DNA of 64,000 bases from Acididesulfobacillus acetoxydans (GTDB lineage: Bacteria > Bacillota > Desulfitobacteriia > Desulfitobacteriales > Desulfitobacteriaceae): the NCBI RefSeq assembly GCF_902729405.1, contig NZ_LR746496.1:806001-870000 (forward strand), in the 5' to 3' direction. The notes under the pieces were generated by a model. The model saw nothing but the letters and a program-made list of their open reading frames with translations. It made no database searches and was not told the DNA's origin. Shown piece after piece: positions 2,999 to 56,236 of the stretch. Within the stretch, counting starts at the first letter, position 1; every line of letters starts with the position of its first letter. The translations under genes and the position numbers were made by a program.

Positions 2999-3055
2999 TT
3001 AAAGCCCTACCTTCTTAACTGCTTTTCCCCTGTCTGACCGTCAGAATGTTTCTTT

Positions 3056-3105
3056 ATCAGGTTAACATCAGTTTACCATATCAGGTTGCCACCTTAGTTT
3101 ACCAT
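3056..3105. repeat. Two tandem imperfect 24-26 bp repeats upstream of the kinase/ATPase gene
   Basis: On the plus strand both units start ATCAGGTT and end AGTTTACCAT (3056-3079 and 3080-3105). They lie 58-107 bp upstream of the minus-strand start at 2998, where an operator or activator site would be expected. GTAAC motifs follow at about 3113-3147. The binding protein is unknown. Confidence 0.45.
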
Positions 3106-3163
3106 GGCATTGTTACATGAAATCGTTCAATTGTTACCGCAATGTAACCGGCCAGCCCTCCGT

Positions 3164-3202
3164 AAAAAAGCAGCAGTCTTATCAATCAACTGCTGCTTTT
3201 TT
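3164..3202. terminator. Bidirectional rho-independent terminator
   Basis: Arms AAAAAAGCAGCAGT (3164-3177) and ACTGCTGCTTTTTT (3189-3202) are flanked by A and T runs on both sides. It would end the small minus-strand gene at 3219-3425. Confidence 0.8.
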
Positions 3203-3218
3203 TGCTGGGCACTTCATT

Positions 3219-3425
3219 TTATTGGATAACCGTCACTCCGTATGTTGTCCGCTGTTTTTGTTTGGTAATCGGCAACCCAAGTGGTAATCTGACCTTAATT
3301 GCTGTCCCATGGGTTGTCTTCAGAGTCTGCGTCGAAGGCGGCGACTGGGCAAAGGCGGTGGGCACGCCTGATGCAAGCATGGCCAGCATCAGCCATAATA
3401 CTATGCCCGTTTTAATTTGTTTCAT
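3219..3425 (-). CDS. Small secreted peptide, unknown function
   Basis: A 68-residue protein with a textbook Sec signal peptide: basic start MKQIK, hydrophobic core to about residue 22, and a likely cleavage site after AFA at residue 26. The mature part would be about 42 residues, basic, rich in Thr, Pro and Gln, and without cysteine. An AAGGAT element lies about 12 nt upstream of the ATG, and a strong terminator follows 17 nt after the stop, so it reads as a monocistronic unit. No family is recognised. The signal peptide and terminator support a real gene; its role is open. Confidence 0.5.
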   Translation of the reverse strand: MKQIKTGIVLWLMLAMLASGVPTAFAQSPPSTQTLKTTHGTAIKVRLPLGLPITKQKQRTTYGVTVIQ

Positions 3426-4960: not shown

Positions 4961-5100
4961 TTACACCCGTCACAGGGTTTTGCGGCCGATCTGCAAATCG
5001 GTTATACTTAATTACGAGGCTCATTGCAGTAGGTGCAGGGTTTTTGAGAATTCGGCAGAGAATGGGCTTGAGAGCCGGGGGCTGTGAGGGAGGAACAGCT

Positions 5101-7917
5101 ATGATTGTACGTAGCGCGTCGGACAAGCAGGTTCTGCAATACGATATGCTGACTCATTTAGGGCAACAGCTCACATCTAGTCTCGATCCCAAAATTGTTC
5201 TATCCTTAATTACACAGTATGCGACAGAGCTATTGGATTCGCATAGTTCGGTCTTGTTGCTGCGGAATGAGTATACCGGAGAAACGCGCTACGTGTCTGT
5301 TTTTAATCTTGCAGAAGAAGAGTTTTTTAACAAAAGGCTTTCTTCCACGGAAAGCCTGGGGAGCCAGATTATCAATACACAGAAGCCCATTCTTCTCAAT
5401 GACTATGGAACATATGCTCGACGTGTTGCTATCCTAGAATCCTATGAAATTAAGGCCGTGATCGGTGTACCCATTATATGGCAGGATCAAGCCATTGGGG
5501 CGCTCAATGTGCACTCAAATAACCCGGATCAGCGATATACAGAGAACGATATCAAGATATTATCCAGTTTCGCCAACTTCGCCGCTATTGCCATAATCAA
5601 TGCTAGGGTTCATGCGCAAGTGCAGAACGAGTTACATCTGAGGCGTGCCCTGAACGAGATCATGCAGGTTTCCAGATTAAACTGCAGCCTGCAAGACCTT
5701 CTGACCAAATTGGCGGCTAAGATCAAAGGCTGGTTTATGGGACTTGATTTTGTCTTGATGGTTCTCAATCCGCTATCCAGTATCACACAGTTCGCCGGAA
5801 GCCATCCTCTTCCTCAAGAGCAGATGGAGAAATTGAAAGAACTGATGAACGTAACACTGGTGTCCGCGGAGGATAGCGAGGCTCTCCCCGGCGAACGCAG
5901 TGAATTGGTTCTGAGCACGGAGAATGCCTTGGCGATGCCTTTGGTGGGGAGGCACAGAAAACTGGGTTACATGGTATGCCTGAACCCCGACGTTTTCCTG
6001 GAGCATGATGGCATGCGGATCATGCAGAACATCACGGATCATGTCGCGCTCACCATCGAAAACGCACTGCTTCACTTGGAGACGAGGGGGGATCTCCAGC
6101 AGGCGTTGGAGCAAATGGGTGCTCTTAATTATGCTATCCGTGAGATTACGGAGTCGGCTTTGCTGGAGACGCTGCCCCAAAATATCGTAAACATGGCCCG
6201 CTCTCTCCTCGGCGCACAGGGTGGGTTGTTGCTGACCGGAGGAGAAGGGAAATCTTTGAGTCTTGCTGCTTTCTCGGGAATGGACGAGGCGCGTTCTGCG
6301 GAATTGAGCGCTCGAATTATCATGCATAGTAAACAGTACGCGATTACGAGGAACCACTACGTGGAGAACCTGTTGGGGTCCGGCGTGGAAGAAGTGGCGG
6401 GTGCGGATGGGCAAGGATATGCTTTCGCATTATTTCTGCCCATGCTATTTCAAAACGAGCGGATCGCACTTTTGGTCATGTTCCAGGCGGAGCCTTTTGT
6501 GCGCTCATCGGGGAAGGTTCTGGTCTCCAGGATTTTTGCGGATATCGCTTCAATAGCGCTTAAGAATGCAGAACTTTTTTCTAACGAGCGGAAAACTGTG
6601 CACGAGCTCCGTTACTACAGTGAGCAAATGAGGGCTTCCCAAGAAGCATTGGAGGATGTTTTTGCCCTCCATAACAAATTACTTCATCTTGTCTTAAATA
6701 ACCGACCTATCCAGGAAATCACAGATGCTGTCCATGGTTCAACCGGGCACGGGATTTTGGTGGAGGATCATATGGGCAATGTCCTTAGCCGATCTTCAGA
6801 AGACCTTCCTTTCTCCACCATATACAGCCAACGCGAGGTGCCCGATGTTATTGTGCACTATCAGAAAGCTTTGCGCAGCAAAGAACCTGTTACTTTGATT
6901 GATGCTCACGATTGCGTTCGGTATCTGGTTCCCCTTATCGTAGGGATGAAAGTGCTGGGATTCGTATCACTATTTGTCTGTTCCGACGCCATTGAAGTTA
7001 TGGACAGGCATATTATCGAATCTTCAGCCACAGCCTACGCCCTAACGATTTTGAACATAAACCGCTCCTTGGACATAGAGCGTCAGTTAAAAGGGCAGGT
7101 ACTGGAAGCCTTAATTCAGGAGTCTTACCCCGCCAAACAAAAGGACTTAGTTCACCGGGCGGGATATTTGGGGTTGAGTGCCGAAGCCCAGTATCGCATT
7201 CTTTTGATCCGAGTTGACACGAAAGAGCCCCTGCCTCAATTGGAGAATTTGCAGATCAAGCAGGAACTGTTAGAATCTGTGCCACAGGCAACCCTTCACT
7301 TTCCCATTAAACCCGCCTTTTTTTCTGATGCCCAAGGGCTGGTGATTGCCTGTCCTGTGACAGGGTCAACGGACGTCTCTCTTGAGAAGATCTTTTCACG
7401 TTTAGAAAAAGAAGTGGCAGTTCGTTTCAAGAGAAACGATAAGCTCTACTGCGGAGTGAGTTCCGTGTTGAATGGTTTATTGGAATTTCGCAAAGGGTAT
7501 CAAGAGGCGGGGAAAGCATTGCTTTCTGCCAAGACCTGGCGGATGGGTACGCTTCCGGTCTATTTTGACCGCTTGGGTATCGTTGGCTTTCTCTTCCAAG
7601 AAGGGAATGAGGACCTGTTGGATAGCTTTGTGCGAAATGCGATGGGCGGCTTGATCGAACTCGACGAGAAAGCCAAAATGTCTTTGGTGGATACACTGGA
7701 GCAATATCTGGATCATGATTGCAGTTTGATTGATACTTCGCAGGCGATGTTCATCCACACGAACACGTTGAAATATCGTTTAAAGAAGATTCAGGAGGTT
7801 ATTCAGGCGGACCTGACCAAGACAACGGATCGTGTCAATTTGTATTTTGCCTGCAAGCTCTTCAGGATAATGAAGGCCAAAGATCAACCCGAATTTACGG
7901 CATTGCTACAACCTTAG
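5101..7917 (+). CDS. GAF-domain/PucR (CdaR-like) transcriptional regulator
   Basis: A 938-residue protein from the ATG at 5101, chosen because GGGAGG lies about 7 nt upstream; an open frame extends further to 5044 but lacks such a site. Residues about 15-170 form a GAF domain; a second and probably a third GAF-like region follow to about residue 515. Residues about 560-860 resemble the sugar-diacid regulator middle region. The C-terminal 60 residues (IDTSQAMFIHTNTLKYRLKK) are the PucR-type helix-turn-helix. Such proteins sense small molecules through GAF domains and activate nearby catabolic genes. It converges with the PanB-like/MFS pair, its likely target. The ligand is unknown. Confidence 0.85.
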   Translation: MIVRSASDKQVLQYDMLTHLGQQLTSSLDPKIVLSLITQYATELLDSHSSVLLLRNEYTGETRYVSVFNLAEEEFFNKRLSSTESLGSQIINTQKPILLNDYGTYARRVAILESYEIKAVIGVPIIWQDQAIGALNVHSNNPDQRYTENDIKILSSFANFAAIAIINARVHAQVQNELHLRRALNEIMQVSRLNCSLQDLLTKLAAKIKGWFMGLDFVLMVLNPLSSITQFAGSHPLPQEQMEKLKELMNVTLVSAEDSEALPGERSELVLSTENALAMPLVGRHRKLGYMVCLNPDVFLEHDGMRIMQNITDHVALTIENALLHLETRGDLQQALEQMGALNYAIREITESALLETLPQNIVNMARSLLGAQGGLLLTGGEGKSLSLAAFSGMDEARSAELSARIIMHSKQYAITRNHYVENLLGSGVEEVAGADGQGYAFALFLPMLFQNERIALLVMFQAEPFVRSSGKVLVSRIFADIASIALKNAELFSNERKTVHELRYYSEQMRASQEALEDVFALHNKLLHLVLNNRPIQEITDAVHGSTGHGILVEDHMGNVLSRSSEDLPFSTIYSQREVPDVIVHYQKALRSKEPVTLIDAHDCVRYLVPLIVGMKVLGFVSLFVCSDAIEVMDRHIIESSATAYALTILNINRSLDIERQLKGQVLEALIQESYPAKQKDLVHRAGYLGLSAEAQYRILLIRVDTKEPLPQLENLQIKQELLESVPQATLHFPIKPAFFSDAQGLVIACPVTGSTDVSLEKIFSRLEKEVAVRFKRNDKLYCGVSSVLNGLLEFRKGYQEAGKALLSAKTWRMGTLPVYFDRLGIVGFLFQEGNEDLLDSFVRNAMGGLIELDEKAKMSLVDTLEQYLDHDCSLIDTSQAMFIHTNTLKYRLKKIQEVIQADLTKTTDRVNLYFACKLFRIMKAKDQPEFTALLQP

Positions 7918-7950
7918 GTGCAAGCCGACCAGAGGCAAAGATGAAGAGAG

Positions 7951-7982
7951 AAAAAAAGAGGCCTTCTCTCTTGCAAGAAGGC
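7951..7982 (-). terminator. Terminator of the MFS gene
   Basis: Read on the minus strand, GCCTTCT pairs with AGAAGGC and is followed by CTC and seven T. It lies 20 nt after the MFS stop. Confidence 0.75.
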
Positions 7983-8001
7983 TATGGCATGGCATCCTGA
8001 T

Positions 8002-9357
8002 TCACTTCGATATTTCCTCCAAGGTCAGACCTTTGGTTTCGATTCCCAAGGCCAGTACCAGTAAGGCGGCTATAGCGAAACTAATAGCTCCCAAACTGAA
8101 CACACCGACTTGCCCAATCGTGTTGACAACATACCCGACGATGACGGGGCCTGCAATCGCGCCAATGCGCCCGAACGCTGAGGAAAAGCCGGCTCCGGTT
8201 GAGCGGGCGTGGGTCGGATAGAGTTCCGGAGTATAGGCGTAAAGACAGCTCCACATCCCAAACATAAAGAACTGCATGATAAAGCCAGTAATGAACAACA
8301 TGGTGTAATCTGTGCTTTGGCCATACAGATAGGCGGTTACGGCACTCATAATCAGAAAGAGAACCGTTGTGGGTTTCCGGCCAACTTTCTCCAAAAGATA
8401 GGCGGCCACGAAAAAGCCGGGAATGCCCCCTGTTGTAATGAGGGTGAGAAACCCCACGGACTGGGTGATAGAAATGCCTCGGGAATTGAGGAGCACAGCC
8501 ATCCAAGACGAGAGACCGAAAAAACCGAGGAGGGAGAAGAACCACAAGCCAAAAGCCATAAAGGTTCGTTTTAAATACATTTTATCGAATAAGGTGAGAA
8601 TAGAGTTTTTCTGCGTGCTGAGTTCAGCGAAAAATGGTTTGGCCGCTGGCAGAGGTTTATTTGTTCGTTTGGCGATTTCCCGTTCTATACCCGTTAGAAC
8701 GACGTTAGCCTCTTGAATACGGCCCTTATCGGCTAGCCACCGGGGTGACTCAGGCAGGTGTCTGCGGACGAAGAAAATCACGATGGATAGGAGTCCGACG
8801 ACCACGAACACCCAGCGCCAACCGACGCGCGGCAGCAGAAAATAGGCAATTCCTCCCGAAAGAACGTAGCCTACGGCCCAGAAACCCTCCATAAAAGCGA
8901 TATATTTTCCCCTTACATCGGCAGGTACAAACTCGGAGACTAGTGCCTGGGCGACCGGGGCTTCACCGCCCACGCCCAAACCGATCAGAAAACGAAAAAC
9001 CATAAGTGCCCCTATACTCCACGCTCCCGCCGCCAGAAAACTGGCGATGCCCCAGATAATCATGCTGATCTGGAAAGTCATCTTGCGGCCAAACCGATCG
9101 GCGGCAACACCGACTAAGACATTGCCCGCTAACTGCCCGGCGAAAGTCATGGATGCCAGAAAGCCGATTTGGACCGCTGTGAGATGAAAATAAACAGTCA
9201 GAGCACCCATCAAAAAGGATAATAAGGCTACATCTACTTGGTCTGCCAACCAGGCGGTGGCAATGACCGTGAAGAGTTTTCGCTGGAAAGATGTCATGGG
9301 CAGTCTTTCGAGCCGACCGGGAATATTCATTTGTGCGGCCGTTTCATTCGCGTCCAT
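8002..9357 (-). CDS. MFS transporter (sugar/aromatic-acid porter type)
   Basis: A 451-residue twelve-helix major facilitator from the ATG at 9357, preceded by GGGAG. Family marks include the loop 2-3 motif GVAADRFGRKMTF, RFLIGLGVGGEAPVAQALVSE in helices 4-5, and PESPRWLADKGR and PELYPTHARSTGAG in the second half. These match the group that includes niacin, aromatic acid and sugar porters. It probably imports an organic acid or similar small molecule by proton symport. It follows the PanB-like gene on the same strand after a 232-bp spacer holding a hairpin at 9512-9536, and faces the GAF/PucR regulator. The substrate is not determinable from sequence. Confidence 0.85.
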   Translation of the reverse strand: MDANETAAQMNIPGRLERLPMTSFQRKLFTVIATAWLADQVDVALLSFLMGALTVYFHLTAVQIGFLASMTFAGQLAGNVLVGVAADRFGRKMTFQISMIIWGIASFLAAGAWSIGALMVFRFLIGLGVGGEAPVAQALVSEFVPADVRGKYIAFMEGFWAVGYVLSGGIAYFLLPRVGWRWVFVVVGLLSIVIFFVRRHLPESPRWLADKGRIQEANVVLTGIEREIAKRTNKPLPAAKPFFAELSTQKNSILTLFDKMYLKRTFMAFGLWFFSLLGFFGLSSWMAVLLNSRGISITQSVGFLTLITTGGIPGFFVAAYLLEKVGRKPTTVLFLIMSAVTAYLYGQSTDYTMLFITGFIMQFFMFGMWSCLYAYTPELYPTHARSTGAGFSSAFGRIGAIAGPVIVGYVVNTIGQVGVFSLGAISFAIAALLVLALGIETKGLTLEEISK

Positions 9358-9589
9358 ATTCCGCTCACTCCCTAGTTTTTTGTCTAACACGCGCTTTGGG
9401 TCTTTGCTTGGAGTGCCGACTGTTCGGTCACTGACATGGGGTAGGCGTGCTTTCAATCTGGGTACAAGCCTTCTTGAACTTCCCGGACGAAGTGCTGAGA
9501 CCCCTGGAGGACCGAAACAAGTCCAAAGCTTGTTTCGACATTTTTCCCTGGGAAGTGCAAGCAGACAGGTCTTGAGCTGTCTGGGAGTA

Positions 9590-10447
9590 CTATTTCAACA
9601 GCTCCAATAGGCGTTCGTGCTCGCCGGGTTTCATAGACACGGTGTGTTTGGCTTCGGGGTACTTGGTTGTAACCACATCATCCCGGTACGCCTTATACAC
9701 ATTTTCCATAGTTTCTAAAAGATTGACGTAAACCTTAGAGTGTTTCGGGACATATCCATCATGAATGCGCAGCATGTCACCGGCTATAATGTGCACGCCG
9801 TCACAGTAAGGTCCCGCCCCGAGACTAATGACAGGAATGCTTAATCTTTCGGTGATAATTTTAGCCAATTCTTGTGGGACTACTTCCAGGAGAAGAGAGA
9901 AACAACCGATTTCTTGCATGATACGAGCATCCTCAATGAGGGCTTTGGCCTCTTGTGCTGTTGTTCCGATAGCCCTAAATCCTCCCATTTGCGCTTCCCG
10001 CATCGGTGTCAACCCAATGTGCCCCATAACCGGAATTCCGGCTTTAATGATAGCTTCGATGTTTCCGGCGATGTGTTTGGTTGCTTCGCATTTCATCACG
10101 TCGGCCCGCCCTGCGCTGACGAAACGACCGGCGCTCTTGATGGCCTCCTCTTTGGACACATGGTAGCTCATATAGGGCATGTCCGCCATGATGAGTGCAT
10201 ACTTAATTCCACGGGAAACCGCTTGGACCATGGTGAGTTCTTCTTCATAAGGTACAGTGAGGGTGGTGTCTCTTCCAAATAGGGTCATAGAAGTCGCATC
10301 ACTCACACAGGCGATATCGAGACCGGCGCGATCCGCCGCAACCGCGTTTGGATAATCGCCAAAGCCCGCCATAGTAATTAATTCATGTTTTTTCTTTTTT
10401 CCCTGAAGATAGGGAATGGTAACTTTTTTTCGTTTAATTTCGTCCAT
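9590..10447 (-). CDS. PanB-like 3-methyl-2-oxobutanoate hydroxymethyltransferase family protein
   Basis: A 285-residue PanB-superfamily enzyme. PanB adds a hydroxymethyl group from methylene-tetrahydrofolate to ketoisovalerate to give ketopantoate. Seen here are the metal-binding aspartates in VSDATSMTLFGRDTT and MADMPYMSY, the GHIGLTP motif, and the catalytic glutamate in LLLEVVPQELA. AAAGGGGTTG precedes the ATG. The segment after GHIGLTP reads MREAQMGGFRAIG rather than the usual PQSxxxxGGYxxQG, and panC and panD are absent, while an MFS transporter and a GAF/PucR regulator are adjacent. It may therefore be a PanB paralogue acting on a different 2-oxo acid in catabolism. Confidence 0.8.
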   Translation of the reverse strand: MDEIKRKKVTIPYLQGKKKKHELITMAGFGDYPNAVAADRAGLDIACVSDATSMTLFGRDTTLTVPYEEELTMVQAVSRGIKYALIMADMPYMSYHVSKEEAIKSAGRFVSAGRADVMKCEATKHIAGNIEAIIKAGIPVMGHIGLTPMREAQMGGFRAIGTTAQEAKALIEDARIMQEIGCFSLLLEVVPQELAKIITERLSIPVISLGAGPYCDGVHIIAGDMLRIHDGYVPKHSKVYVNLLETMENVYKAYRDDVVTTKYPEAKHTVSMKPGEHERLLELLK

Positions 10448-10766
10448 TTCAAAGCAACCCCTTTCCGTTGTGTTAAGTTAATTATAGATCTCACGCATAA
10501 GGTTTTCCTATATCTATGATAAACAAAACTTAAATGGGGTTTTGTCTTTGCCGGACAACGGCGGAAAAGGCTTATTCGTCATGGACCGGGTCCTATGCCG
10601 GTAAACATTAACCAGTTCGAACACTTGCTGGCAACCGCGGGACAGTAAAAAGGCGCCCTCTTGAAACAATGTTTCTCGATGAGCACCTCAATTTAGTGGC
10701 GTCCAAATATTCGTTTCAAAGTCCAGCTTCTGGCAAGAAGTCCGGTCTCAAGAAAGCTAGTCGGTG
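10448..10766. other. Intergenic region, no gene seen
   Basis: About 320 bp between two minus-strand genes. The part nearest 10448 should hold the promoter of the PanB-like gene, but no clear -35/-10 pair was found. No convincing coding frame or hairpin. Confidence 0.4.
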
Positions 10767-11969
10767 CTAACTGAGGCCCAGACAACGGCGTAAATCATCG
10801 TGGTCCCAATGCGTCCAGTGTTCAGAGCGCGCCAGGTAACGTGGAGTGGAGCCCAGACCCAACAGATAGCGGTTTCTCCAGTGTGCGGCAAGATCGGCAA
10901 AAGACAGATCATTATACGCGGGTTCAGTCCGCCTGCCGCCCAGAAAATCCCCCAGGTTGGAAATGTGCGGAATGATAAACAGTTCGCGGGGAATCCCATG
11001 CTGAGCGAGAGAACTGGGTAGGCCGAGGGCTCGCAAAGCCAGAGTGATTACCGTGCGCTTGATCTTTGGGCCCGTGCCGAATCCTGTCACTCGCAATTCC
11101 GGATGAAAAGCACGAACAAAATCTTTGAGTTCCTGGTATAGCGTGTCCGAACAGTGGTAGGTTCCCCATCCGGATGTCTGACCCAAGGAAAAGGTGAGCC
11201 AATGGTTCTGTCCTCGGCTGGTCTTACCTGCGGAAACCCTATTGTACAAGGAACTGCGGCCGAAAGCCGAGAGGGTGGTAATGGCAACTAGACGGGCGGG
11301 CAGGAGCTCTTGTCTGAGTTCGGAGCGGGTTAACCGGTATTTTCGTTCATATGCCAGACGCACATCGCGGCTAGCTGCGGCCATGACGGCCAGTTTCCCG
11401 CCCAAAAAGCCATTGTATGGAGGTACGGCACCTAAGACAAAGGCATCCATGGTCTGGTTAATCAGGACCACCTTTTGCGCTCGGGGGATCTGATAAAAGT
11501 TGTCACGCAGGGCCAAGTCGATGGGTGGAGACTGCAAGCCAATGAGTCCCATTAACTTATCATGGTATCGGTCCCAAAGCAGGAAACGCAGGCGTCTCCC
11601 GTATCCTTTAGAGTAGGGCAATTGCCAGGTATAGCGAGCTAATCGAAACAGGTCCGCCATGGGTCCTTTTTCCACTGGGATAAGTTCTGGCTGAACTTTG
11701 GCGGGGTCTAAACCCAAACCGCACGCGAAAAAGGAGCGGTAACGCTGGTAAGATTGCTGGATCCAGGATTTGTTCCGCTCCAGTTCCTGATAGCGGTGCC
11801 AATAGTGCATTTCTCGGTAAAGGTTTTTCATGGGGGCGTTCGGTGGACCGGTTATGCCGTGGACATGACCTAACTCACGGATAATCTTGTCACGCAGTTC
11901 ATCGGAAGAGGGGGCAAAAGTGTACGGGTGTCTCCATACTCCATGCGTAAAATCAAAGATATTGCTCAT
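10767..11969 (-). CDS. DruA-like DUF4338 protein, solitary
   Basis: A 400-residue protein with the DUF4338 core: LMGLIGLQSPPIDLALRDNF, then VVLINQTMDAFVLGAVPPYN and FLGGKLAVMAAASRDV. This is the domain of DruA in Druantia anti-phage systems; single DUF4338 genes are also common outside complete systems. No large helicase (DruE-like) or other Druantia gene lies in the window. The ribosome binding site is weak (no AGGAGG within 20 nt of the ATG). Neighbours are a PanB-like gene and a broken chemotaxis receptor, so no defence context is evident. The biochemical function of DruA is not established; nothing more is claimed. Confidence 0.75.
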   Translation of the reverse strand: MSNIFDFTHGVWRHPYTFAPSSDELRDKIIRELGHVHGITGPPNAPMKNLYREMHYWHRYQELERNKSWIQQSYQRYRSFFACGLGLDPAKVQPELIPVEKGPMADLFRLARYTWQLPYSKGYGRRLRFLLWDRYHDKLMGLIGLQSPPIDLALRDNFYQIPRAQKVVLINQTMDAFVLGAVPPYNGFLGGKLAVMAAASRDVRLAYERKYRLTRSELRQELLPARLVAITTLSAFGRSSLYNRVSAGKTSRGQNHWLTFSLGQTSGWGTYHCSDTLYQELKDFVRAFHPELRVTGFGTGPKIKRTVITLALRALGLPSSLAQHGIPRELFIIPHISNLGDFLGGRRTEPAYNDLSFADLAAHWRNRYLLGLGSTPRYLARSEHWTHWDHDDLRRCLGLS

Positions 11970-12171
11970 AACTAGAATATTCGCCAGAAGTTTCCATTAT
12001 CCTGCACGAGCCCTAATAATAGTTGGGCATCCGGAAAAAAATCCGGCAGATGCAGCAGGAATTCCCGCCAAGCTGTCGAATGTGGCCAAGAACTTTGCGG
12101 CAATACTTGACAGCATTCGGCGAAATTCGGGCATAGCTGTCAAGGGATAAAGAATCTAAGGGGGTCTTTGG

Positions 12172-13896
12172 GTGAGGTTTCTCAACAACGTAACCTGGAA
12201 AGTCAAGCTCACGACCGGCTTTGCGGTGCTCGTAGTGTTAGTCGCTTTTATGGGTTATCTAGGAATTATGGAAATGGGCGAGATCGATGCCAGGGGAGGC
12301 AAAATTTATTCTGATAGTCTTGTACCTGTTATTGAACTGAATCATATTAAGGCGGATCTGAGAGAGAGCACCGTTGATATCCAACAGCTTTATATCGAAC
12401 AGGATAAAATCCAGCACACGAACAGTTCCCAGCAGCTTCAAGCGGCCGAGGCCCAATTTAGAAAAGATGAGCAGATCTACGAGAAGAGCTTTGCGGATGG
12501 ATTGCCGCCTGGGGACAAGAGCTATTTTTCCGCTTATGAGCGAGCCGTTGCCGATTATTGGGCCTCCTATGATCGTGCGGTCCAATTTTTAGCGGCAAGA
12601 AACTATCCAGCAGCGGGTAAGATTCTGCAAGGCGGGATGCAAACGACTAATGAGACCTCTATCGAGAATCTGAATAAGTTGATTGCGGCGGCTGAAAACG
12701 GAGCCCGCAGCAGAAACGAAGATAACCATCAAGTCTTCCTTGGCACAAGGATGGTGGTGCTCAGCGTTCTCGGGTTCAGTCTGTTGGTTGCTCTGCTGCT
12801 AGCTTCCTACCTGTCCATCAATCTCTCCCGTCGCCTCTCTGAAATTGCGCAATTTGCCGGCGGTTTTGGACTGGGCGATCTAAGCCGGGAACTCAGATTG
12901 TACGGTAGAGATGAAATCGGGAAAATGGGGGATGCTCTGAGGCAGGCGATGCAAAACGTTCGCGAACTTCTCGTTGCAATTCATGACGGTTCCGAGTCGA
13001 TGAGTGCCTAATCGCAGGAACTCTCAGCCACGATGGAAGAGCTTTCAGCCACGATGCAGACCATTCAGGGATCGGCGGAGCAGATTGCCCAAGGAACAGA
13101 AGAGCTTACTGCCAGTACGGAGGAAATGGGCGCTTCGGCCTGGGAAATGCAAGAATTTACAAAGCAGTTAACGGTCAGGGCGGACACGGGACGGAATAAT
13201 GCCTTAGCTATTAAGGAACGGGCCAGTGAGATAAGGAGTCGGGGCGTACGGGCTGTGGAGGAGGCGAATGTGATTTACAAGGACAAGGAAGCCAAAGTCA
13301 GACAAGCTTTGGAGCAGTCGAAGGCAGTGGACCAAATCAAGGTCATGGCAGAGGCTATTGGGGGAATTGCTCAGCAAACCAATCTGTTATCACTAAATGC
13401 CAGTATCGAAGCCGCACGTGCGGGAGAGGCTGGGCGAGGGTTTGCGGTTGTTGCCGATGAAGTTCGAAAGCTGGCGGAACAGTCCGAGACAGCGGTCAGC
13501 AACATCCATAATGTCGTCAGTGACGTCCAAAAAGTCTTTGGAAATCTCGTGACCAACACCCAAGCATTACTGGTGTTCATTGAGACCAAGGTTCGCCCTG
13601 ACTATGAAGCCTATGCTCAGACTGGCAATCAATATGAAGAGGATTCCAAATTCGTCACGGAAATGTCTCAGGAACTGGCCGAAGCAACCCTGTCTATGAG
13701 CAAAGTTATTGCTCAAATCAGCGCGACGATTCAAAATGTGGCGGCAACCGCGGAGGAGTCTGCCTCCGGCTCGGAGGAAATATCCTCCATAGTGGACCAG
13801 ACGGCTACCGCGGTAGAACAAGTCAATCAATCGGCCCAGGCTCAAGCGCGGCTGGCGGGGAAGTTAAGTGAGTTGGTGGGGAAATTTAAGGTGTAA
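12172..13896 (+). pseudogene. Methyl-accepting chemotaxis protein interrupted by an in-frame TAA
   Basis: Translation starts at a GTG with AAGGGGG upstream. TM1 is near residues 12-32, followed by a four-helix-bundle sensor region, TM2 near 190-212 and HAMP. Codon 280 (13009-13011) is TAA. The same frame continues at once with [15 protein letters not shown] and the full signalling domain: the hairpin tip [20 protein letters not shown] and [17 protein letters not shown], ending at 13896. Both halves are well preserved and unshifted, so the break is a single nonsense codon, for example TCA to TAA. Unless it is read through, the receptor would lack its kinase-control domain. An internal ATG at 13033 could give a soluble signalling fragment. 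Confidence 0.85.
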
Positions 13897-13942
13897 GGTC
13901 GCTGCGCCAAGCAAGAAAGAGGATGGTGTTACGAATACAGAA

Positions 13943-14233
13943 ATGGAAGAAACACTGAAAGCCTTCGCGAATACTCTCCGTTCCTTGGGGCACTCGGAAA
14001 AGGAAATTGAAACAATGATCGCCCCGGTCTACGAACTGTACAGAGAACTTAAAGCGGACCTGGCCCGATTGACGGAATCGTCGCGGGAGGATGGGGATCG
14101 ATGCTCTTTTCCGACAAATGGAACCTCGGAGGCTCCATTCTTTGGAGGTAAGGGCGACGGTTTCGCCCTTACCGGTCTGGGTAATTTCCGCGCTTATACA
14201 AAGTCTTTAATTGTTAGCAGACAGGCATCGTGA
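13943..14233 (+). CDS. Small charged helical protein downstream of the chemotaxis receptor
   Basis: A 96-residue frame from the ATG at 13943, starting 47 nt after the receptor stop. Its first 50 residues (METEETLKAF-like, then LRSLGHSEKEIETMIAPVYE and LYRELKADLARL) are helix-forming and look coding. The rest is low in coding character and runs through an 11-bp hairpin at 14147-14173, so the native gene may have been shorter and extended by a frameshift. GAGGATG lies about 15 nt upstream. No family is recognised; position suggests co-transcription with the receptor. Confidence 0.4.
   Translation: MEETLKAFANTLRSLGHSEKEIETMIAPVYELYRELKADLARLTESSREDGDRCSFPTNGTSEAPFFGGKGDGFALTGLGNFRAYTKSLIVSRQAS
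14147..14173. terminator. Terminator-like hairpin without T run
   Basis: GGTAAGGGCGA (14147-14157) pairs perfectly with TCGCCCTTACC (14163-14173) around a 5-nt loop. No T run follows. It may still end the receptor transcript. Confidence 0.45.
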
Positions 14234-14354
14234 AACTATCTCTGGATGGGGTAAGCAAGGGCATCGGAGATGGGTCTTCACGCCAGAAGAGGGTATTGCC
14301 ACCATTTACACCCCCGCAGTTTGCTTTGTTCTCCCGTAACCGTAAGTTCCTTCT

Positions 14355-15587
14355 TTACGCGTCCGCCATCAGCCGTTTTTCACCGGAGATTTCCTGGATG
14401 GGTCGAATATCCTGGGACACCTCCATCGTGCCCAGATACTCGCCTTGTGCATTTCTGACGGCAAAGTAGCGAATGTAGACATACTGGTTTCCCATGTTTA
14501 GCCAGAAATCCTCGTGGTCCTTTTTCCCGGATTTTAGGTCTTCGACAATTTTCTGCACGATATGTACACTTGCCGGAGGATGACAGTTCTCAACCAGCCT
14601 GCCGATAATGGTTTTGGGTCGCGCAAAAATCCGTTCTTTGCCCTGGGTAAAGTACTTGACGGTATTGTTCTTGTCGACGAACGTGATATCTATGGGTAAG
14701 GTATTGAGCATCGCATTTATCTCTTCCGGCAAGAGAAGCCCGGCGTCAAAGTGAACATAGGTTGTCTGGGAAGTCTCTTCCCTAAACTCCGGCTCATGAT
14801 CCGCGTGCGCAGACGTGGAAGCCGCCTCCGGCATCGGCGGGTCGATCAAGCAGTAGCCGATTTCGGGGCTTGCCTGGGCGATCTTCATCCACTCCGGGTC
14901 TGTCAAAGAGTCCGAGGCCATAGGAAAAAGGATGTTCTCTTCTTTGAAAATCATCTCTTTCAGCCGGGTTGCAGCCTGAGAAGCTTTTTCAATGACGGTG
15001 GCTGCATTTTCGGGGACATCAGCCAGAAGTTTTCGCGTCTCTTTGATAAGAATCCGAATTTCATCATCAACTCCCCACATGACTTGGGGAGGGGCGGTGA
15101 TCTTATGTTTTTCCATATAGGGGAAGAGCAAATTTTCTTTGCGGGAGTAGTGCTTATCAATTTCCCCCAACAGCGTAAAATCGGCAGCAAGTTCTTTCCG
15201 TTTCGCCACACTGTCTGCCGTCTTCAGTTCTTCCAAATGCGGTAGGATATGCTCATTTAGCAATTTCTCCAGTTCTCTGTTTTCCAATTTAAAGGTGTAG
15301 ATGGGGTGAGCAGGATTTTCTTCACGCGGCCGGGGCGCGTGAATTTCTTCGATTGATCCCTTAAATACCGACGCGTGTACATCACAAAGTCGTTGGACTT
15401 CCTCGACGGGCATCCCTTCGAGGATTAAGGCTTGTTCCATTTCCGCTATCTCTGACGCCGAAACGCCTTCGATCAAGGCGGCAAAGCGGTTCTTAACCTC
15501 CTCAACACTACTGCCTTGATGCAGGTCTGTAATTAATTCCTTGAGTACTCTTTGCCGATAGACTCGGTTATTGATGGCTTCACTCAT
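14355..15587 (-). CDS. DUF438/hemerythrin/PAS protein
   Basis: A 410-residue cytoplasmic protein. The N-terminal about 75 residues are a DUF438 domain. Residues about 90-230 form a hemerythrin-like four-helix bundle with histidines and glutamates in HILPHLEEL, HYSRKENLLFPYME, WGVDDEIR and FKEENILFPM, the expected di-iron ligand pattern. The C-terminal about 110 residues are a PAS fold (PIDITFVDKNNTVKYFTQGK). The architecture is common in anaerobic Firmicutes and is thought to sense or handle oxygen, nitric oxide or redox changes. It stands alone and converges with the small gene at 13943. The partner is unknown. Confidence 0.85.
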   Translation of the reverse strand: MSEAINNRVYRQRVLKELITDLHQGSSVEEVKNRFAALIEGVSASEIAEMEQALILEGMPVEEVQRLCDVHASVFKGSIEEIHAPRPREENPAHPIYTFKLENRELEKLLNEHILPHLEELKTADSVAKRKELAADFTLLGEIDKHYSRKENLLFPYMEKHKITAPPQVMWGVDDEIRILIKETRKLLADVPENAATVIEKASQAATRLKEMIFKEENILFPMASDSLTDPEWMKIAQASPEIGYCLIDPPMPEAASTSAHADHEPEFREETSQTTYVHFDAGLLLPEEINAMLNTLPIDITFVDKNNTVKYFTQGKERIFARPKTIIGRLVENCHPPASVHIVQKIVEDLKSGKKDHEDFWLNMGNQYVYIRYFAVRNAQGEYLGTMEVSQDIRPIQEISGEKRLMADA

Positions 15588-15670
15588 ACGATTTACTCCC
15601 TCTACAGTTTAATCCTTCGTCCTTACGGGGATTAGCCTTTCCTGTCTAGACTCGGTTGAATTAGATTTGA

Positions 15671-16075
15671 TTATACCACCTTTGTGCGGAAACTCCACCG
15701 CAAGGCCCATCTTACAAGGGGGCGCCGGCGCAAGACATGGAACGATTGTACGAAGAAGCACCTTACACTCTCTTGGCAACGGTAAATTTCCCTAAGGCAA
15801 CGGCAGCGAAAAGTTTTAGCGGTGGCGTAGTTTTTGCGTGGAAATATCCGGAATTTGATAATTGACACAATCAAAATAATCAACACAATCGTTATGACGA
15901 CATCTACATCAACGAGTACAACACACCCGGAGGCTTGTGGGTTACCAATCATTGGTTCTGCAGTCTGGGCTGCGGAATGAGCGAGGATGGATTACAGGTC
16001 ATCAGTCCGTTACTTTCGGGCATCTACCTTACACCGCATCCCGTGAGGGGTGCCTTCTACCCACTACGCGTGTAG
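15671..16075 (+). pseudogene. Possible decayed gene with an in-frame TGA
   Basis: One plus-strand frame runs from 15671 to the TAG at 16073 with a single internal stop, TGA at 15863-15865. The frame has an ATG at 15737 (MERLYEEAPYTLLATVNFPK). After the TGA it has an Asn/Gln/His-rich stretch, then YDDIYINEYNTPGGLWVTNH. Composition looks coding on both sides. The opposite strand (15671-15952) also has an open frame with one hydrophobic helix, so the strand is not certain. No family is recognised. The TAG ends one base before the ATG of the candidate toxin peptide. Confidence 0.3.
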
Positions 16076-16076
16076 A

Positions 16077-16187
16077 ATGATCAGAGATTTCGTTGTGGCT
16101 ATGATCATCACAGATATTCATCGCTTGGCATGGGCAACCTTAGTCGTCGCGGTGCTGAAATTCGTCCTTGAGATACTGAAAAAGTAA
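16077..16187 (+). CDS. Candidate type I toxin peptide (holin-like/TxpA-like)
   Basis: A 36-residue peptide: short charged start MIRDFVVAMIITDIHRL, one hydrophobic helix and a basic end EILKK. Size, single helix, lysine tail and the fusion of the stop codon to the left arm of a strong terminator all match the holin-like toxin group of Firmicutes (TxpA/BsrG type). Such peptides insert in the membrane and are silenced by an antisense RNA from the convergent strand, and a good convergent promoter is present at 16314-16343. No strong ribosome binding site precedes the ATG; a GTG at 16050 is an alternative start. It may be a relic rather than an active toxin. Confidence 0.5.
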   Translation: MIRDFVVAMIITDIHRLAWATLVVAVLKFVLEILKK

Positions 16188-16217
16188 CCCCACCCCGCAA
16201 AGAGAAGGTTACTTTTT
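16179..16217. terminator. Bidirectional terminator shared by toxin and antisense RNA
   Basis: Arms AAAAAGTAACC (16179-16189) and GGTTACTTTTT (16207-16217). The left arm contains the stop codon of the 36-residue peptide. Confidence 0.75.
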
Positions 16218-16307
16218 CATTACGACCTTTTTCTCGTCCTATCCCATTGTGGCCGCACACCTGCGGTTCGTTGTGCTGGGACGCGGGATATTAGCCGCGT
16301 TCTCTTT
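16179..16307 (-). ncRNA. Candidate antisense RNA opposing the toxin peptide
   Basis: A minus-strand promoter with TTGCAT (16338-16343), an 18-bp spacer and TATAAT (16314-16319) predicts a start near 16307. Transcription would run to the shared terminator, giving an RNA of about 130 nt with no good coding frame. The 3' overlap with the peptide mRNA is the arrangement of TxpA/RatA-type systems. Promoter and terminator are seen; the regulatory role is inferred. Confidence 0.5.
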
Positions 16308-16313
16308 GTCTAT

Positions 16314-16343
16314 ATTATACCGCAAAATTAAGCGAGTATGCAA
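16314..16343 (-). promoter_or_regulatory. Sigma-A promoter of the candidate antisense RNA
   Basis: TTGCAT, 18 bp, TATAAT, reading on the minus strand. Confidence 0.6.
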
Positions 16344-16352
16344 CAGTAAGAC

Positions 16353-16365
16353 AAACGCTCGTTAG
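16353..16365. repeat. Inverted repeat, left (AAACGCTCGTTAG)
   Basis: 13 bp, exact reverse complement of 17083-17095. The pair brackets the integrase remnant region. A third copy, in the same orientation as the right end, is at 3610-3622 in duplication copy 1. Confidence 0.55.
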
Positions 16366-16386
16366 ATGCATGGAAGGGGGGATCTT

Positions 16387-16581
16387 GTGTTAATCCAGAC
16401 TGACTTGTGCAATCTGTATGGCACCAATCCAGAGAAAATGTCGCTGGCTCTTAATATGGTGCCTGTCCATGAGGATATTTCCAAGCAAAAGATTGCGGAA
16501 CTGTTCGAGGAGCTGCGCTGTTTTGAGCAGACTGTTAAGGTTCTGGCCCAGCTATCCTTTGCCGCTCAAAAAGGAGCCTGA
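16387..16581 (+). CDS. Small protein of unknown function upstream of the integrase remnant
   Basis: A 64-residue frame from a GTG at 16387, chosen because GGAAGGGGGG lies 5-6 nt upstream. It reads VLIQTDLCNLYGTNPEKMSL and ends with an amphipathic helix (KIAELFEELRCFEQTVKVLA). No family is recognised. It ends 15 nt before the integrase remnant and lies between the 13-bp inverted repeats, so it may belong to the same old mobile element. Confidence 0.4.
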   Translation: MLIQTDLCNLYGTNPEKMSLALNMVPVHEDISKQKIAELFEELRCFEQTVKVLAQLSFAAQKGA

Positions 16582-16596
16582 TTAGTCGGAGAGGCG

Positions 16597-16932
16597 GTGA
16601 AACACCTAAGCTCGCAGCAGGCCGGTATCCGGCAAAACGGGCGGGCCGTTCCGATGATGGCAGGAATTCTCAGCCAACGGGGGCGAGGACCCAAACGCCT
16701 TACGGCCAGCGGTATCGGGCAGGTGATTGATCAATACGCATACCTGGCGAAGCTTCCCCAACTGCACCCGCACGCACTTCGGCACACGTTTGCCAAGAAC
16801 ATGCTGAACGCGGGAGAAGGGCTGGAGATGGTCGCGGAGTTTCTAGGGCACAAAAGACTTGACACCACGAGAACGAAGCCGACGGAGCAGGAAAAAGCGC
16901 GGGCCGTGGAGAAACTTTCGTGGAGAAAATGA
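16597..16932 (+). pseudogene. C-terminal remnant of a tyrosine recombinase
   Basis: The 111-residue frame holds only the C-terminal catalytic part of a phage/transposon integrase: HPHALRHTFAKNMLNAG (the HxxR box) and VAEFLGHKRLDTTR. The following segment, normally xIYTxP with the catalytic tyrosine, here reads TKPTEQEKARAVEKL, so the nucleophile is gone. About 200 N-terminal residues, including the first catalytic arginine, are missing. It is inactive and marks a past insertion close to the 13-bp inverted repeats and the duplication boundary at 16998. Confidence 0.8.
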
Positions 16933-17082
16933 GAAAATAGGAATGGAATGGAAGGAGCTGCCGAATGACAAAAAAGGCAATCGCAGCCCATATGTGATGT
17001 GATACGCTTCTACTGCGTTGGTCGTCAGAATCTAACCACTGTGGAATGTAAATCGGTTCAGGCGGCTCAGGTATGAATCAAC

Positions 17083-17095
17083 CTAACGAGCGTTT
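17083..17095. repeat. Inverted repeat, right (CTAACGAGCGTTT)
   Basis: Reverse complement of 16353-16365. It overlaps the stop codon of the nitroreductase at 17094. Confidence 0.55.
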
Positions 17096-17702
17096 ACAGT
17101 TCTTTCAGAAGGAGATCCTTCAGTTCCAGTCGGGGACGGGGTGCAGGGTCCTGATCCGCATAGCCGACGGGCATCAGAGCCACTATACTGTAATTGTTGC
17201 CGAGTCCCAGCACTTCTTTGGCCTTGCCCTGATCAAACATCATGACCCAACACGTTCCCAGTCCCAGGTCAGCAGCCCGCAAAGCCACGTGTTCAAGGGC
17301 GATGGCTGCATTGAGACGCAGATACCCTTGCGCAGTGGCTTTGTCCATTTGCCGGCGTTGGGCGTAGTCTTTCGAATCCAAGTCGGCCAGAGGAGTGTCA
17401 TTGAAAGCTCCGGCTTCTTTGAGTTCACGCATCCGGGTTCCCAGTCCGCCAAAAGAATCGGCATCTACACAGCACGCCAGGACGACAGGTGCCTGTGTGA
17501 CAAAGGGGAGCGAAGTTGCCGCACTTAGACGTGCTCTTGCCTCCGGACTTTTGATCACAACAAAGCGGGTGGGCTGCAAGTTGCTCCCGGAGGGAGCAAG
17601 CCTGGCCGCCATCAGCAATTCCGTAATTGCTTCATCTGGGACAGAATCGGCTTTATACTTGCGGACGCTGTGCCTTTTTTTCATGGCGTCGATTAATTCC
17701 AT
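17094..17702 (-). CDS. Nitroreductase family protein, copy 2
   Basis: A 202-residue FMN nitroreductase-family protein, identical to the copy at 3621-4229 except for two residues (S in place of A in KADSVPDE, N in place of D in GLGNNYS). It has the same GGAGGAG ribosome binding site. It lies 42 bp downstream of the iron alcohol dehydrogenase on the same strand, so the two probably form an operon here, a link that copy 1 lacks. Substrate unknown. Confidence 0.88.
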   Translation of the reverse strand: MELIDAMKKRHSVRKYKADSVPDEAITELLMAARLAPSGSNLQPTRFVVIKSPEARARLSAATSLPFVTQAPVVLACCVDADSFGGLGTRMRELKEAGAFNDTPLADLDSKDYAQRRQMDKATAQGYLRLNAAIALEHVALRAADLGLGTCWVMMFDQGKAKEVLGLGNNYSIVALMPVGYADQDPAPRPRLELKDLLLKEL

Positions 17703-17744
17703 AGTACTATCTCCTCCAATTGTGAGATTCCCGCTTTCACTCGT

Positions 17745-18908
17745 TTACAGAGCAGCCCTGAGAATTTGCAGGACATCTTCCGCATTGACCGGCCTGAATT
17801 CGCCGAGTGGACCCGATTTTGTCGCCGCTCTGGCCATCACCTCAAGTTTGTCCTCGGGGATATTGATTTCATGCAGAGATGTGGGCAAACCTAAAGAGAC
17901 AAAGAATTCTCTGGTCTTGGCAATGGCCTGCCGAGCTGCAGCGAAAGCATTGTCCTGTGGATTCAGACCCCAGACATTGACCCCATATTCTTTGAAGGTG
18001 TCAACCGTCTGCTCGGAGAGGACATACTCCATCCAGTGGGGAGTTAAAACCGCCAGACCCACCCCGTGTGTAATATCATAGTAAGCACTGAGTTCGTGTT
18101 CAATGGGATGTACGGTCCATTTTCTTTCTTTCCCGTAACTTAAAAGTCCGTTAATGGCCAAACTTGATGCCCACATGAGGTTGGCTCGCGCTTCATAATC
18201 TTCAGGGTTCTCCATGGCCTGAGGTCCGTACCGGATACAGGTTTTCAAAATGCCTTCCGCTAGGCGGCTCTGTAAAAAGGCGCTTCGCGTTTTGCTGAAA
18301 TAGGATTCAAAGACATGACTCATGATGTCCGCGGTACCCGCGGCTGTCTGGTTTTTGGGGACGCTGAAGGTATACGTGGGATCAAGGATTGAGAATACCG
18401 GGCTCAGGGACGGATGGCCTATGCCGACCTTCTGATGGGTCTCAGGATTGCTGATGACCGCCATGGGATCCATTTCCGAACCGGTTGCAGCGAGAGTAAG
18501 GATGGTCCCAAGCGGTAGAGCTTTTTCAATCTTGGCCTTACCAATCATGAGATCCCAGGGATCCGAACTGTAATAGAACCCAGCGGCGATAATTTTGGCG
18601 CAATCGATCGTGCTTCCTCCGCCGACGGCAAGAATGAAGTCGATCTCGTTTTTGCGGCAGAGATCAATTCCCTTACGGACACTGGTAACCCGAGGATTCG
18701 GTTCGACACCTGAGAGTTCCCAAAATGGGATGTCAGCAGACTGAAGAAGTTCTATGACATTGGCATAGAGTCCCATCTTTTTGATACTTCCTCCGCCGTA
18801 AACGAGGAGGAGCTTGGATCCGTATCTTCTGATTTGGTTGCCCAGGACTTTGAGCTGACCCTCACCAAAAAAGACTTCTGTCGGAATTCGGTAATTGAAG
18901 TTCAACAT
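17745..18908 (-). CDS. Iron-containing alcohol dehydrogenase (butanol dehydrogenase type)
   Basis: A 387-residue group III alcohol dehydrogenase. The start is the ATG at 18908 with AAGGAG 8 nt upstream; an earlier in-frame ATG at 18932 lacks a site. It shows the nucleotide-binding AVGGGSTIDCAKIIAAG and LAATGSEMDPMAVIS, and the metal ligands in TADIMSHVFE, HPIEHELSAYYDITHG and LTPHW. This resembles the NAD(P)H-dependent butanol dehydrogenases (BdhA/YqhD type), which interconvert aldehydes and alcohols in the cytoplasm. It precedes nitroreductase copy 2. It is absent from the duplicated locus at 3.5-4.4 kb. Confidence 0.88.
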   Translation of the reverse strand: MLNFNYRIPTEVFFGEGQLKVLGNQIRRYGSKLLLVYGGGSIKKMGLYANVIELLQSADIPFWELSGVEPNPRVTSVRKGIDLCRKNEIDFILAVGGGSTIDCAKIIAAGFYYSSDPWDLMIGKAKIEKALPLGTILTLAATGSEMDPMAVISNPETHQKVGIGHPSLSPVFSILDPTYTFSVPKNQTAAGTADIMSHVFESYFSKTRSAFLQSRLAEGILKTCIRYGPQAMENPEDYEARANLMWASSLAINGLLSYGKERKWTVHPIEHELSAYYDITHGVGLAVLTPHWMEYVLSEQTVDTFKEYGVNVWGLNPQDNAFAAARQAIAKTREFFVSLGLPTSLHEINIPEDKLEVMARAATKSGPLGEFRPVNAEDVLQILRAAL

Positions 18909-18932
18909 GGCAAATTCTCCTTTCCGCAGCAA

Positions 18933-19228
18933 GTCAATTGTATCTCTAAGGATTTATTTTCGCAACGTCTTAGACTAAACCGACAACGGATGGCAGCGGC
19001 CAAATGTGAAATGAGGGGTAGACATGCCTTTCGAAGGGGTGGATGGAATCAAAATTCACGATGGAGAAAGCGGAAGCGTGGCCGAGGTAATATGCCAACA
19101 TGCACACCGTCCCCATCACCCACGGTTCGATCAAGCAGGGAACTTTCACCCCTAGATAGAGAATGTTGTGGCGCACTTGGAATATAGAGAGAAGGGGTTT
19201 GGTACAAAAACACTAAAAGAAAGCTTTT
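18933..19228. other. Intergenic region, no gene seen
   Basis: Short frames on both strands (for example 19023-19157 plus) have no ribosome binding site or recognisable family. Its right end abuts the 175-bp repeat. Confidence 0.4.
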
Positions 19229-19403
19229 GAAATAGCAAAGAAAAACAAACCAAAGGCGGCTGGACGTCGCCTCACCGGATCGGCCAGGAAGAACAAGGAC
19301 CGTTCGAACGGCTTGGACGCTTCGGTGAACATCAGCAGGAACAAGAGGAGAATAGGAAGGAAGGCGGGGAGAAAGAGCGAGAAGAAGAAAGGCAGGATAA
19401 AGG
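19229..19403. repeat. 175-bp repeat, copy 2, start of an open Glu/Gln/Arg-rich frame
   Basis: Matches 4263-4437. The plus-strand frame through it stays open to about 19719 and becomes less charged (DIDITFPFLNLILTFGTSLS), but has no start with a ribosome binding site. It may be the tail of a lost gene. Confidence 0.7.
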
Positions 19404-19664
19404 GAAGTTTTCGAACACGGCGGAACCAGAAGCGGACAGAGTGGAACCTGCGGGTGCAGTGGAGCCGAAAGAAGACCGGGAGGGAGAGGCTAACCGGCGG
19501 CAAAAGGAGCCGGTTGGACAACAGTGCCAAGAATCCGGGTATAACGGTGGCGTCAAGGATAAGACGGCAGATATTGACATAACGTTTCCGTTCTTGAACC
19601 TGATCCTAACCTTTGGAACGAGTTTAAGTATAACCACCGTTCCTGAGGAACCGCTGACAGATCA

Positions 19665-20546: not shown

Positions 20547-20864
20547 TCTCCAACCTCCATTTACCATCTTCACTCACTGTTATTCCTTATCTTTCATGTT
20601 CGCCTTCTATTTCCACGTCACTTATCTTGAAACCTTACTATCTTTATACTACCTTTGTCTGTTTTGAGCAAGAAGCAGGTAACGACAGTGGTGTTTTGGG
20701 CAATTGTCTATAAAGCCTTATTCCGGGGGCTTTTAAGCAATTGTTTGTTTTTGCCATAAGAATAATGCGTCTTTTTAACCATTTACTTTCTGTCTAAACC
20801 AACGGCTTTGTGCTAAGCTTAGATTATCTTACAAACTCGTTCTATTTATTTAAGAGGAGAGCCA

Positions 20865-48821: not shown

Positions 48822-48849
48822 CAGAGTGAAAAATGTGAATATCCATACT

Positions 48850-48992
48850 ACAGGTGCCCAAAAAGGGAGAATAGGAAACCGGGTGTGATTCCCGGACGGA
48901 CCCGCCACTGTGAAGGTGAGCTGTTGCCATAACCACTCCAAAAGGGGGAAGGGGCAAGACAGCGATGAGCCTGAGTCAGGAGACCTGCCTGT
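48850..48992 (+). promoter_or_regulatory. Cobalamin riboswitch
   Basis: All conserved blocks are in order: AGGTGCCC, GAGAATAGGAAACCGGGTG, GATTCCCGGACGGACCCGCC followed by ACTGT, GGGAAGGGGC, and the B12 box region GAGCCTGAGTCAGGAGACC with TGCCTGT. A terminator at 49050-49077 follows, so cobalamin should switch off the downstream genes by early termination. Confidence 0.95.
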
Positions 48993-49049
48993 AAATATCT
49001 ATACCGGCCTCGCGAGTAAGGTTGGTTAGGTGAGGATAATGGTAAAATC

Positions 49050-56059: not shown

Positions 56060-56236
56060 GGATGGGCAATTTCGGAGCCGCCGTCGGTAAATATTCATGA
56101 TCAGACCCGGAATGAGAATATGGCCGCCGCTGAAGACAGCAGGAGCCTTTGGGCTTAATCTTATATCCTGCCGAGGTTGGACAGATCGCTGACATAAGTT
56201 CAGCTTTCTTAACCTCTGCTGCGGCAGAGGTTTTTT
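56060..56236 (+). promoter_or_regulatory. Ribosomal protein L10 leader with terminator
   Basis: The conserved core GACAGCAGGAGCC with TTATATCCTGCCGAGGT (56130-56177) matches the L10 leader, which binds L10 or L10-L12. The terminator AACCTCTGC/GCAGAGGTT with six T follows at 56211-56236; its left arm can pair with CCGAGGTT as an antiterminator. It autoregulates rplJL. Confidence 0.9.

Follow-up and report, generated by a model that had tools for sequence, protein, structure and literature searches.

Introduction

Among the described defence systems, DISARM and Dpd carry a DNA-modification arm. Modification enzymes can also be found on their own. Orphan DNA methyltransferases may outlive their nuclease, and they serve as an analogy in this study. 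A helicase of the YprA family is described, in passages of PMC12458937, as common to DISARM, Dpd and Druantia type I (druABCDE); the whole words DruA, GNAT and acetyltransferase are absent from the main text of that paper. The search for orphan genes of the Doron systems was unproductive for its authors, according to a passage of PMC8565338. In the literature searched, outside which most subscription papers lie, no description or name was found for a neighbourhood composed of DruA, NurA and HerA. NurA and HerA together with Druantia, as well as DruA with IS66, were also absent from it. Among the matches listed, none combined Druantia with GNAT. Papers that contain Druantia with Mom, and NurA and HerA with antiphage, do occur. 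No report of an activity for DruA was found in the literature searched.

Here, a druA gene is described that lies in a window of 64 kb, the whole stretch of DNA that was analysed. The gene resembles Druantia type I in encoding a full-length PF14236/PADLOC DruA1 protein, which has 30–35% identity to its DruA counterparts in three plasmid systems. It differs from Druantia type I because neither a DruE/MZB helicase nor DruB–D was found, and because its clade is mostly linked with HerA and NurA. With the DruA-NurA-HerA neighbourhood it shares nearest kin in HerA-linked loci, but NurA and HerA were not found in its own genome. We favour, at a probability of roughly 0.4, the explanation that its product is a nucleic-acid-modifying acyltransferase which has outlived its restriction partners.

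Identity and surroundings of the window gene

The druA gene is an intact, full-length DUF4338/DruA gene on the minus strand (10767–11969). It is an open reading frame of 400 codons with an ATG start and encodes 400 aa. The initial annotation had reported a DUF4338/DruA gene at exactly these coordinates, and the copy is indeed a full-length one. The window protein matched PF14236 (DruA) of Pfam at 5.3e-82 (275.7 bits, cut-off 27), covering profile positions 4–297 of 297. The PADLOC profile DruA1 (PDLC00002) matched its residues 33–397 at 4.8e-85. No Pfam family other than DruA was matched at E≤1, no NCBIfam match lay above cut-off, and the PDB sequence search returned no meaningful solved structure. 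It is the single full-length DruA copy of its genome (4.52 Mb, single contig, 97.7% complete). A single-protein search of genome contigs, viral contigs and phage records gave no close homologue. In the search of the own genome and relatives, two of the 100 genomes matched, the own genome and G071, the latter through a piece at the end of a contig. Two conserved segments were recognised in the alignment, both on the minus strand. The first, PPYNGFLGGKL (residues 183–193, 11391–11423), contains Gly191. The second is TTLSAFGRSSLYNR (residues 231–244, 11238–11279), and its TTLSA variant is common to the window protein, L067 from Tengunoibacter and L068 from Nostoc.

A PanB-like gene of the ketopantoate hydroxymethyltransferase family (PF02548), with no known role in DruA function, lies at 9590–10447 on the minus strand. 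On the other side, a chemoreceptor gene on the plus strand (12172–13896) is split into two ORFs, a sensor part (12172–13011) and a signalling part (13033–13896). Further away is an integrase fragment of 111 aa (16597–16932), whose match to the phage integrase family is confined to the C-terminal portion of that family. The surroundings are therefore as first described, with a metabolic gene, a broken receptor and a mobile-remnant zone. Because the best PanB-like protein of the sister genome G001 is only 43% identical, the druA region does not look shared with that genome. Elsewhere in the window, a cobalamin riboswitch (48836–49006) and a ribosomal protein L10 leader (56112–56245) were seen, both on the plus strand.

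Partners were searched in the window and in the whole genome. Profiles of DruE, NurA and HerA found nothing at E≤1e-4 in six-frame translations (pieces of at least 50 aa) of the 64-kb window. DruB, DruC and DruD of the three plasmid systems had no tblastn match in the window, which is a weak test as these proteins are divergent. Ten neighbouring ORFs (5044–20573) had no PADLOC match at E≤0.001. The earlier observation that no DruE or other defence gene is visible holds as far as PADLOC, the profiles and the window reach. Neither NurA (PF09376) nor the MZB domain of DruE (PF09369) was found genome-wide (4.52 Mb); with the PF09369 model, the DruE found in a relative scored 52 bits. Genome searches with the HerA of one kin and with a family of about 426 aa, described below, were empty and were run without a positive control. 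A DruE query gave a 67-residue match of 19.8 bits at an unrelated place. DUF87 had three weak matches in the genome, FtsK, a T2SSE-type ATPase and a 253-aa P-loop ATPase, and these were rejected as HerA since they are other ATPases. As far as can be recognised, the window druA is an orphan, with no partner nearby or genome-wide.

Neighbourhoods of full-length relatives

The genomes of 84,980 species were scanned by profile with alignment A1, and 390 relatives were obtained. The best 80 of the 390, in order of similarity to the window protein, were kept, and the census is accordingly biased towards relatives of that protein. The census comprised 91 loci, these 80 and 11 others, after 4 of 95 had been dropped (L062, L065 and L066 as the same records as L096, L137 and L146, and L053 as a fragment). 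Six-frame profiles were applied within 8 kb of DruA. HerA with NurA was found in 37 loci, DruE in 25, HerA alone in 8, NurA alone in 2, all three in 1 and none in 18. Since these loci also supplied the sequences for the profiles, the counts are not independent of the Pfam-named examples. NurA and/or HerA is thus near DruA in 48 of the 91 loci and DruE in 26, one locus (L092) being in both counts, with a partial DruE 7 kb away on the opposite strand. A consistent non-defence neighbourhood in relatives, which had been proposed as the sign of a housekeeping role, was not seen. Of the 40 loci with NurA, 36 (36/91 overall) encode it on the strand of DruA and at most 300 bp downstream. When ten example neighbour proteins were named by Pfam, NurA was assigned in four and DUF87 (HerA) in three, and the HerA of L068 and L067 is also Pfam-confirmed. 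The DruA-NurA-HerA neighbourhood spans Chloroflexota, Bacillota, Cyanobacteriota and other phyla. Among plasmid records, 13 had a match, and in 3 of them the match extends over at least 80% of the query. In all three of these, a DEAD/DEAH helicase of about 1800 aa is near DruA, as in canonical Druantia I.

Some loci contain additional genes. A pair near DruA, a protein of 852–883 aa and another of 395–407 aa, is shared by L102 (5316–9065), L123 (10962–14788) and L117 (5621–9492). The larger protein in L102 has ORC-CDC6-like and kinase-like domains, and its partner has no Pfam match. In L065 (11652–15856), a UG25-type defence reverse transcriptase immediately precedes full-length DruA, and a NurA-like frame begins at the contig end. 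A DruA-NurA-HerA locus, L042, encodes a 1013-aa protein (212–3253) with AAA_11/AAA_12 helicase, PLD nuclease-like and zinc-ribbon domains, which is MkoA-like in PADLOC.

For 92 rows, a maximum-likelihood tree was quickly computed, in which branches are long (0.92 for the end branch of the window protein). The window protein groups with L067, L068 and L069 at an SH-aLRT of 98; L068 and L069 are near-identical Nostoc loci and count as one. All three nearest kin have a HerA-type ATPase, which adjoins DruA on the opposite strand in Nostoc and lies 2.6 kb downstream in Tengunoibacter. The next supported set has 41 rows (26 with NurA/HerA, 10 with none and 5 with DruE). Rows labelled NurA/HerA and rows labelled DruE form clusters in the tree, none of 500 shuffles being as low. 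These labels come from an ORF-based table and not from the six-frame census, and a few rows differ (L081 and L127 are "none" in the former and NurA with HerA in the latter). We read the window druA as an orphan of the DruA-NurA-HerA neighbourhood.

A protein of about 426 aa adjoins the HerA-type ATPase in four loci (L067:12404–13693, L068:12956–14236, L069:12956–14236 and L086:6661–7941). By eye, its DGS and LLKDGR segments resemble NurA motifs. Its assignment as NurA is doubtful, with no Pfam match in three tested proteins, no profile match and an AF2 model of pLDDT 30.

Predicted fold and a possible link to Mom

The AF2 model of the window DruA, built with 51 sequences, has a mean pLDDT of 87.1 and a pTM of 0.86. 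Foldseek against the PDB returned mostly acetyltransferases, with a best E no better than 0.17. VIA-align on 660 Foldseek chains placed Mom of phage Mu first (8bv8, Z 9.7, 171 residues, 3.9 Å), with KKT23, SACOL1063, Naa60 and others next at Z scores between 8 and 8.9. Mom leads the other GNATs by no more than the margin of 1 at which ranks count as tied. By title, the top 50 are acetyltransferases or acetyltransferase-containing, except Mom, four ribosome-assembly complexes and one toxin. According to the predicted model, the window DruA is a GNAT-fold protein. Its core comprises residues about 93–346 (10932–11693 on the minus strand, coordinates computed from residue numbers), as judged from the model and the VIA-align ranges. 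When the model was searched against BFVD with Foldseek, four matches were found at E≤0.001, three to proteins of giant viruses and one to a phage fragment. The three giant-virus proteins (A0A3G4ZXG3, A0A5K0UAJ3 and A0A3G4ZRA1, from Faunusvirus, Yasminevirus and Dasosvirus) are uncharacterised and gave E from 5.7e-13, for Faunusvirus, to 2.1e-7. Excerpts of published work report phage proteins with DruA-like structures (PMC12774648) and, independently, name DUF4338 a GNAT domain (PMC10853773).

The DUF4338 family has a second, short branch, and profiles of both branches were compared with that of Mom. The short DUF4338 profile (14 rows) matched the phage Mom profile (12 rows) with a probability of 95.4 and an E of 1.9e-8 over 143 columns, and with a probability of 93.7 when query and target were swapped. 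The long and short DUF4338 profiles matched each other with a probability of 96.5 and an E of 9.3e-10. Controls with NurA, HerA, the family of about 426 aa and 14 ordinary GNATs, the latter being those of 30 fetched loci that passed a simple ORF and motif filter, stayed below 2 against each of the three alignments. Direct comparison of long DruA with Mom gave a probability of 0.3, and 0.1 with a single Mom, so a direct profile link was rejected. A pooled profile of long and short sequences reached 2.3 against Mom, and the window protein had no profile match to PF25680 (Mom) in Pfam at E≤1. The link of full-length DruA to Mom, as judged from sequence profiles, would run only through the short branch and is indirect for the window protein.

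Asn121, Ser124, Asp149 and the YxAxN segment of Mom align with like residues in the short branch. At the Ser124 position, Ser is invariant in all 14 short-branch rows, and a PDB title names S124A an inactive mutant. Aligned via the short branch, this position falls on Gly191 of the window protein. With Ser replaced at this position, long DruA may have another chemistry or may serve for binding only. Overall, DruA is like Mom in the GNAT fold of the model, with Mom at the top in VIA-align, and in the match of the short branch. It is unlike Mom in lacking a direct profile match, in the Gly at the Ser124 position, and in its N-terminal helices and C-terminal extension.

These data bear on what DruA would act on. 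It might be a GNAT for protein or tRNA, such as a sensor, a regulator or a toxin-like effector, whose nuclease or helicase partners handle DNA separately. The altered Ser position fits such a role, as do the many protein and small-molecule acetyltransferases and the GNAT-like toxin that lie within 1 to 2 Z units of Mom. However, the short branch matches Mom and not the alignment of 14 ordinary GNATs, and DNA-processing enzymes are the constant neighbours of DruA. We consider this alternative somewhat unlikely. In the favoured reading, that of a modifying acyltransferase without its restriction partners, nucleic acid would be the substrate.

State of the gene and lone copies

A gene stranded from its defence locus may have lost its function. 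The window druA stands alone, with the split receptor gene and the integrase fragment close by, its start codon lacks a good ribosome-binding site, and lone copies are dispersed across the tree, all of which would agree with a functionless remnant, recently stranded and with its frame still open. The codon score of druA is the 12th lowest among the 33 window genes. On the other hand, the gene is full length and retains 54 of 56 near-invariant residues. In alignment A2, composed of 50 of 64 named DruA rows and the window protein, its two deviating positions give rank 30 of 51. At a looser 70% threshold it deviates at 0.130 against a median of 0.091, rank 37 of 51. The gene does not look decayed. 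Moreover, no piece of NurA, HerA or DruE remains in the window. A functionless druA is unlikely in our judgement.

Lone full-length DruA occurs in other genomes also. Among the 18 partnerless loci of the census, 9 have DruA less than 400 bp from the downstream contig end, L104 and L120 have a neighbour from the DruB-position cluster, and L102 and L123 have another gene pair in common. Only 5 of the 91 loci (L060, L061, L063, L070 and L109) have over 9 kb of sequence on each side of DruA and yet contain none of NurA, HerA and DruE. The initial annotation had called lone DUF4338 genes common, which does not apply to full-length DruA. The lone label, whose rows include contig-end loci, is unclustered on the tree (17 changes against 17.6, with 229 of 500 shuffles as low). 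Repeated loss therefore fits better than a single lone lineage. For the window gene, too, loss of the partners would be preferred to arrival of druA alone.

The five lone loci could instead mean that DruA acts alone, or in trans with an unrelated nuclease or helicase of the host, as a one-gene defence or for self-marking. Host helicases do exist. Against this, the lone state is rare and has no lineage of its own, and the lone DruA of L109 is the most diverged of the 51 rows at near-invariant positions. An autonomous role of this kind appears quite improbable, and any function of the lone copy is putative.

Short, transposon-borne DUF4338 genes

Four ORFs for short DUF4338 proteins, each about 300 aa long, are present in the own genome, along with two weakly matching fragments. 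In the copies that were read, the short gene is just downstream of a transposase with an IS66 domain (PF03050, 182.6 bits). The IS66-type element with its short DUF4338 passenger has 2,714 bp (L162:534–3247, corresponding to 2219065–2221778 of the own genome contig, G000:C1). Further copies are L163 and L164, and L165 is partial. Its ends are 24-bp imperfect inverted repeats with 4 mismatches. Perfect 8-bp direct (target) repeats flank all three complete copies, and the fourth copy is without its left part.

In other Bacillota, 10 proteins adjoining or fused to short DUF4338 were scanned, and 7 of the 10 have transposase domains over the cut-off. These domains are of IS66 in L030 and L034, of Tn5 type in L021, L037 and L038, and DDE_Tnp_1_assoc in L024 and L025. 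They are below the cut-off in L023 and L029, and the neighbour in L022 is a multicopper oxidase, not a transposase. In L037 (1–2265) and L038 (1–2259), DUF4338 and the Tn5-type transposase are fused in a single frame of about 750 aa. With the own IS66 protein as a query, an IS66 gene was found in the 1.5-kb flanks of only 1 of 19 loci (L020), and the carriers of short DUF4338 are therefore varied.

The window gene belongs to the same Pfam family as these passengers of IS66, Tn5-type and DDE_Tnp_1-type elements, and the profiles of the two branches match, as given above. The passengers have about 300 aa, an adjoining or fused transposase and multiple copies, none of which applies to the window gene. 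The terminal repeats that had been suggested around 10.6–12.1 kb were searched within 10440–12180, where only short, weak pairs were seen and none was convincing. The window holds no ends of the IS66 element of the own genome, and neither terminal inverted repeats nor a transposase adjoining or fused to druA was found. The window gene itself does not look mobile. Although the short branch travels on IS66 and Tn5-type elements, in the own genome too, the idea that the window gene is such a passenger can practically be dismissed, as it is single-copy, has no ends or adjoining transposase, and belongs to a different branch (29.5% identity to the short passenger of the own genome over only 61 residues). 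The proposal that DUF4338 genes may be mobile thus stands for the short branch and is not supported for the window gene.

Conclusions

The explanation favoured here, a nucleic-acid-modifying acyltransferase outliving its restriction partners, starts from an intact and conserved gene, its clade, the partners found in relatives and recognised nowhere here, the model fold and the profile matches. Mom of phage Mu, a putative distant relative of DruA, moves an acyl group onto the N6 of adenine, as stated in a part of PMC7824862. DruA may likewise add an acyl or similar group to a nucleic-acid base. HerA-NurA, or DruE in Druantia I, would act as the effector, sensing either the mark or the lack of it and destroying foreign DNA, and DruA with either of them would form a modification-plus-restriction system. 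An orphan modification enzyme would be harmless, like an orphan methyltransferase, and for this reason a lone DruA could persist after the nuclease arm was lost. The proposed way of life is alike in both cases; DruA is not a methyltransferase, and its modification is putative.

A wider proposal is made more tentatively, and we regard it as possible though doubtful. The whole DUF4338/DruA family might be GNATs of the Mom type that mark nucleic-acid bases. Under this view, Druantia I, with DruA and DruE, and a second, undescribed system of DruA, NurA and HerA would both restrict on the basis of modification. The marks set by the short proteins would lie on transposon DNA, and the window gene would represent a new kind of orphan modification enzyme.

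The DruA-NurA-HerA neighbourhood is a candidate defence system. DruA is the first gene of Druantia I, and the Mom link makes a modified-base activity directly testable. If it is true, Druantia I would come into line with DISARM and Dpd as a system with a helicase and a modification arm.
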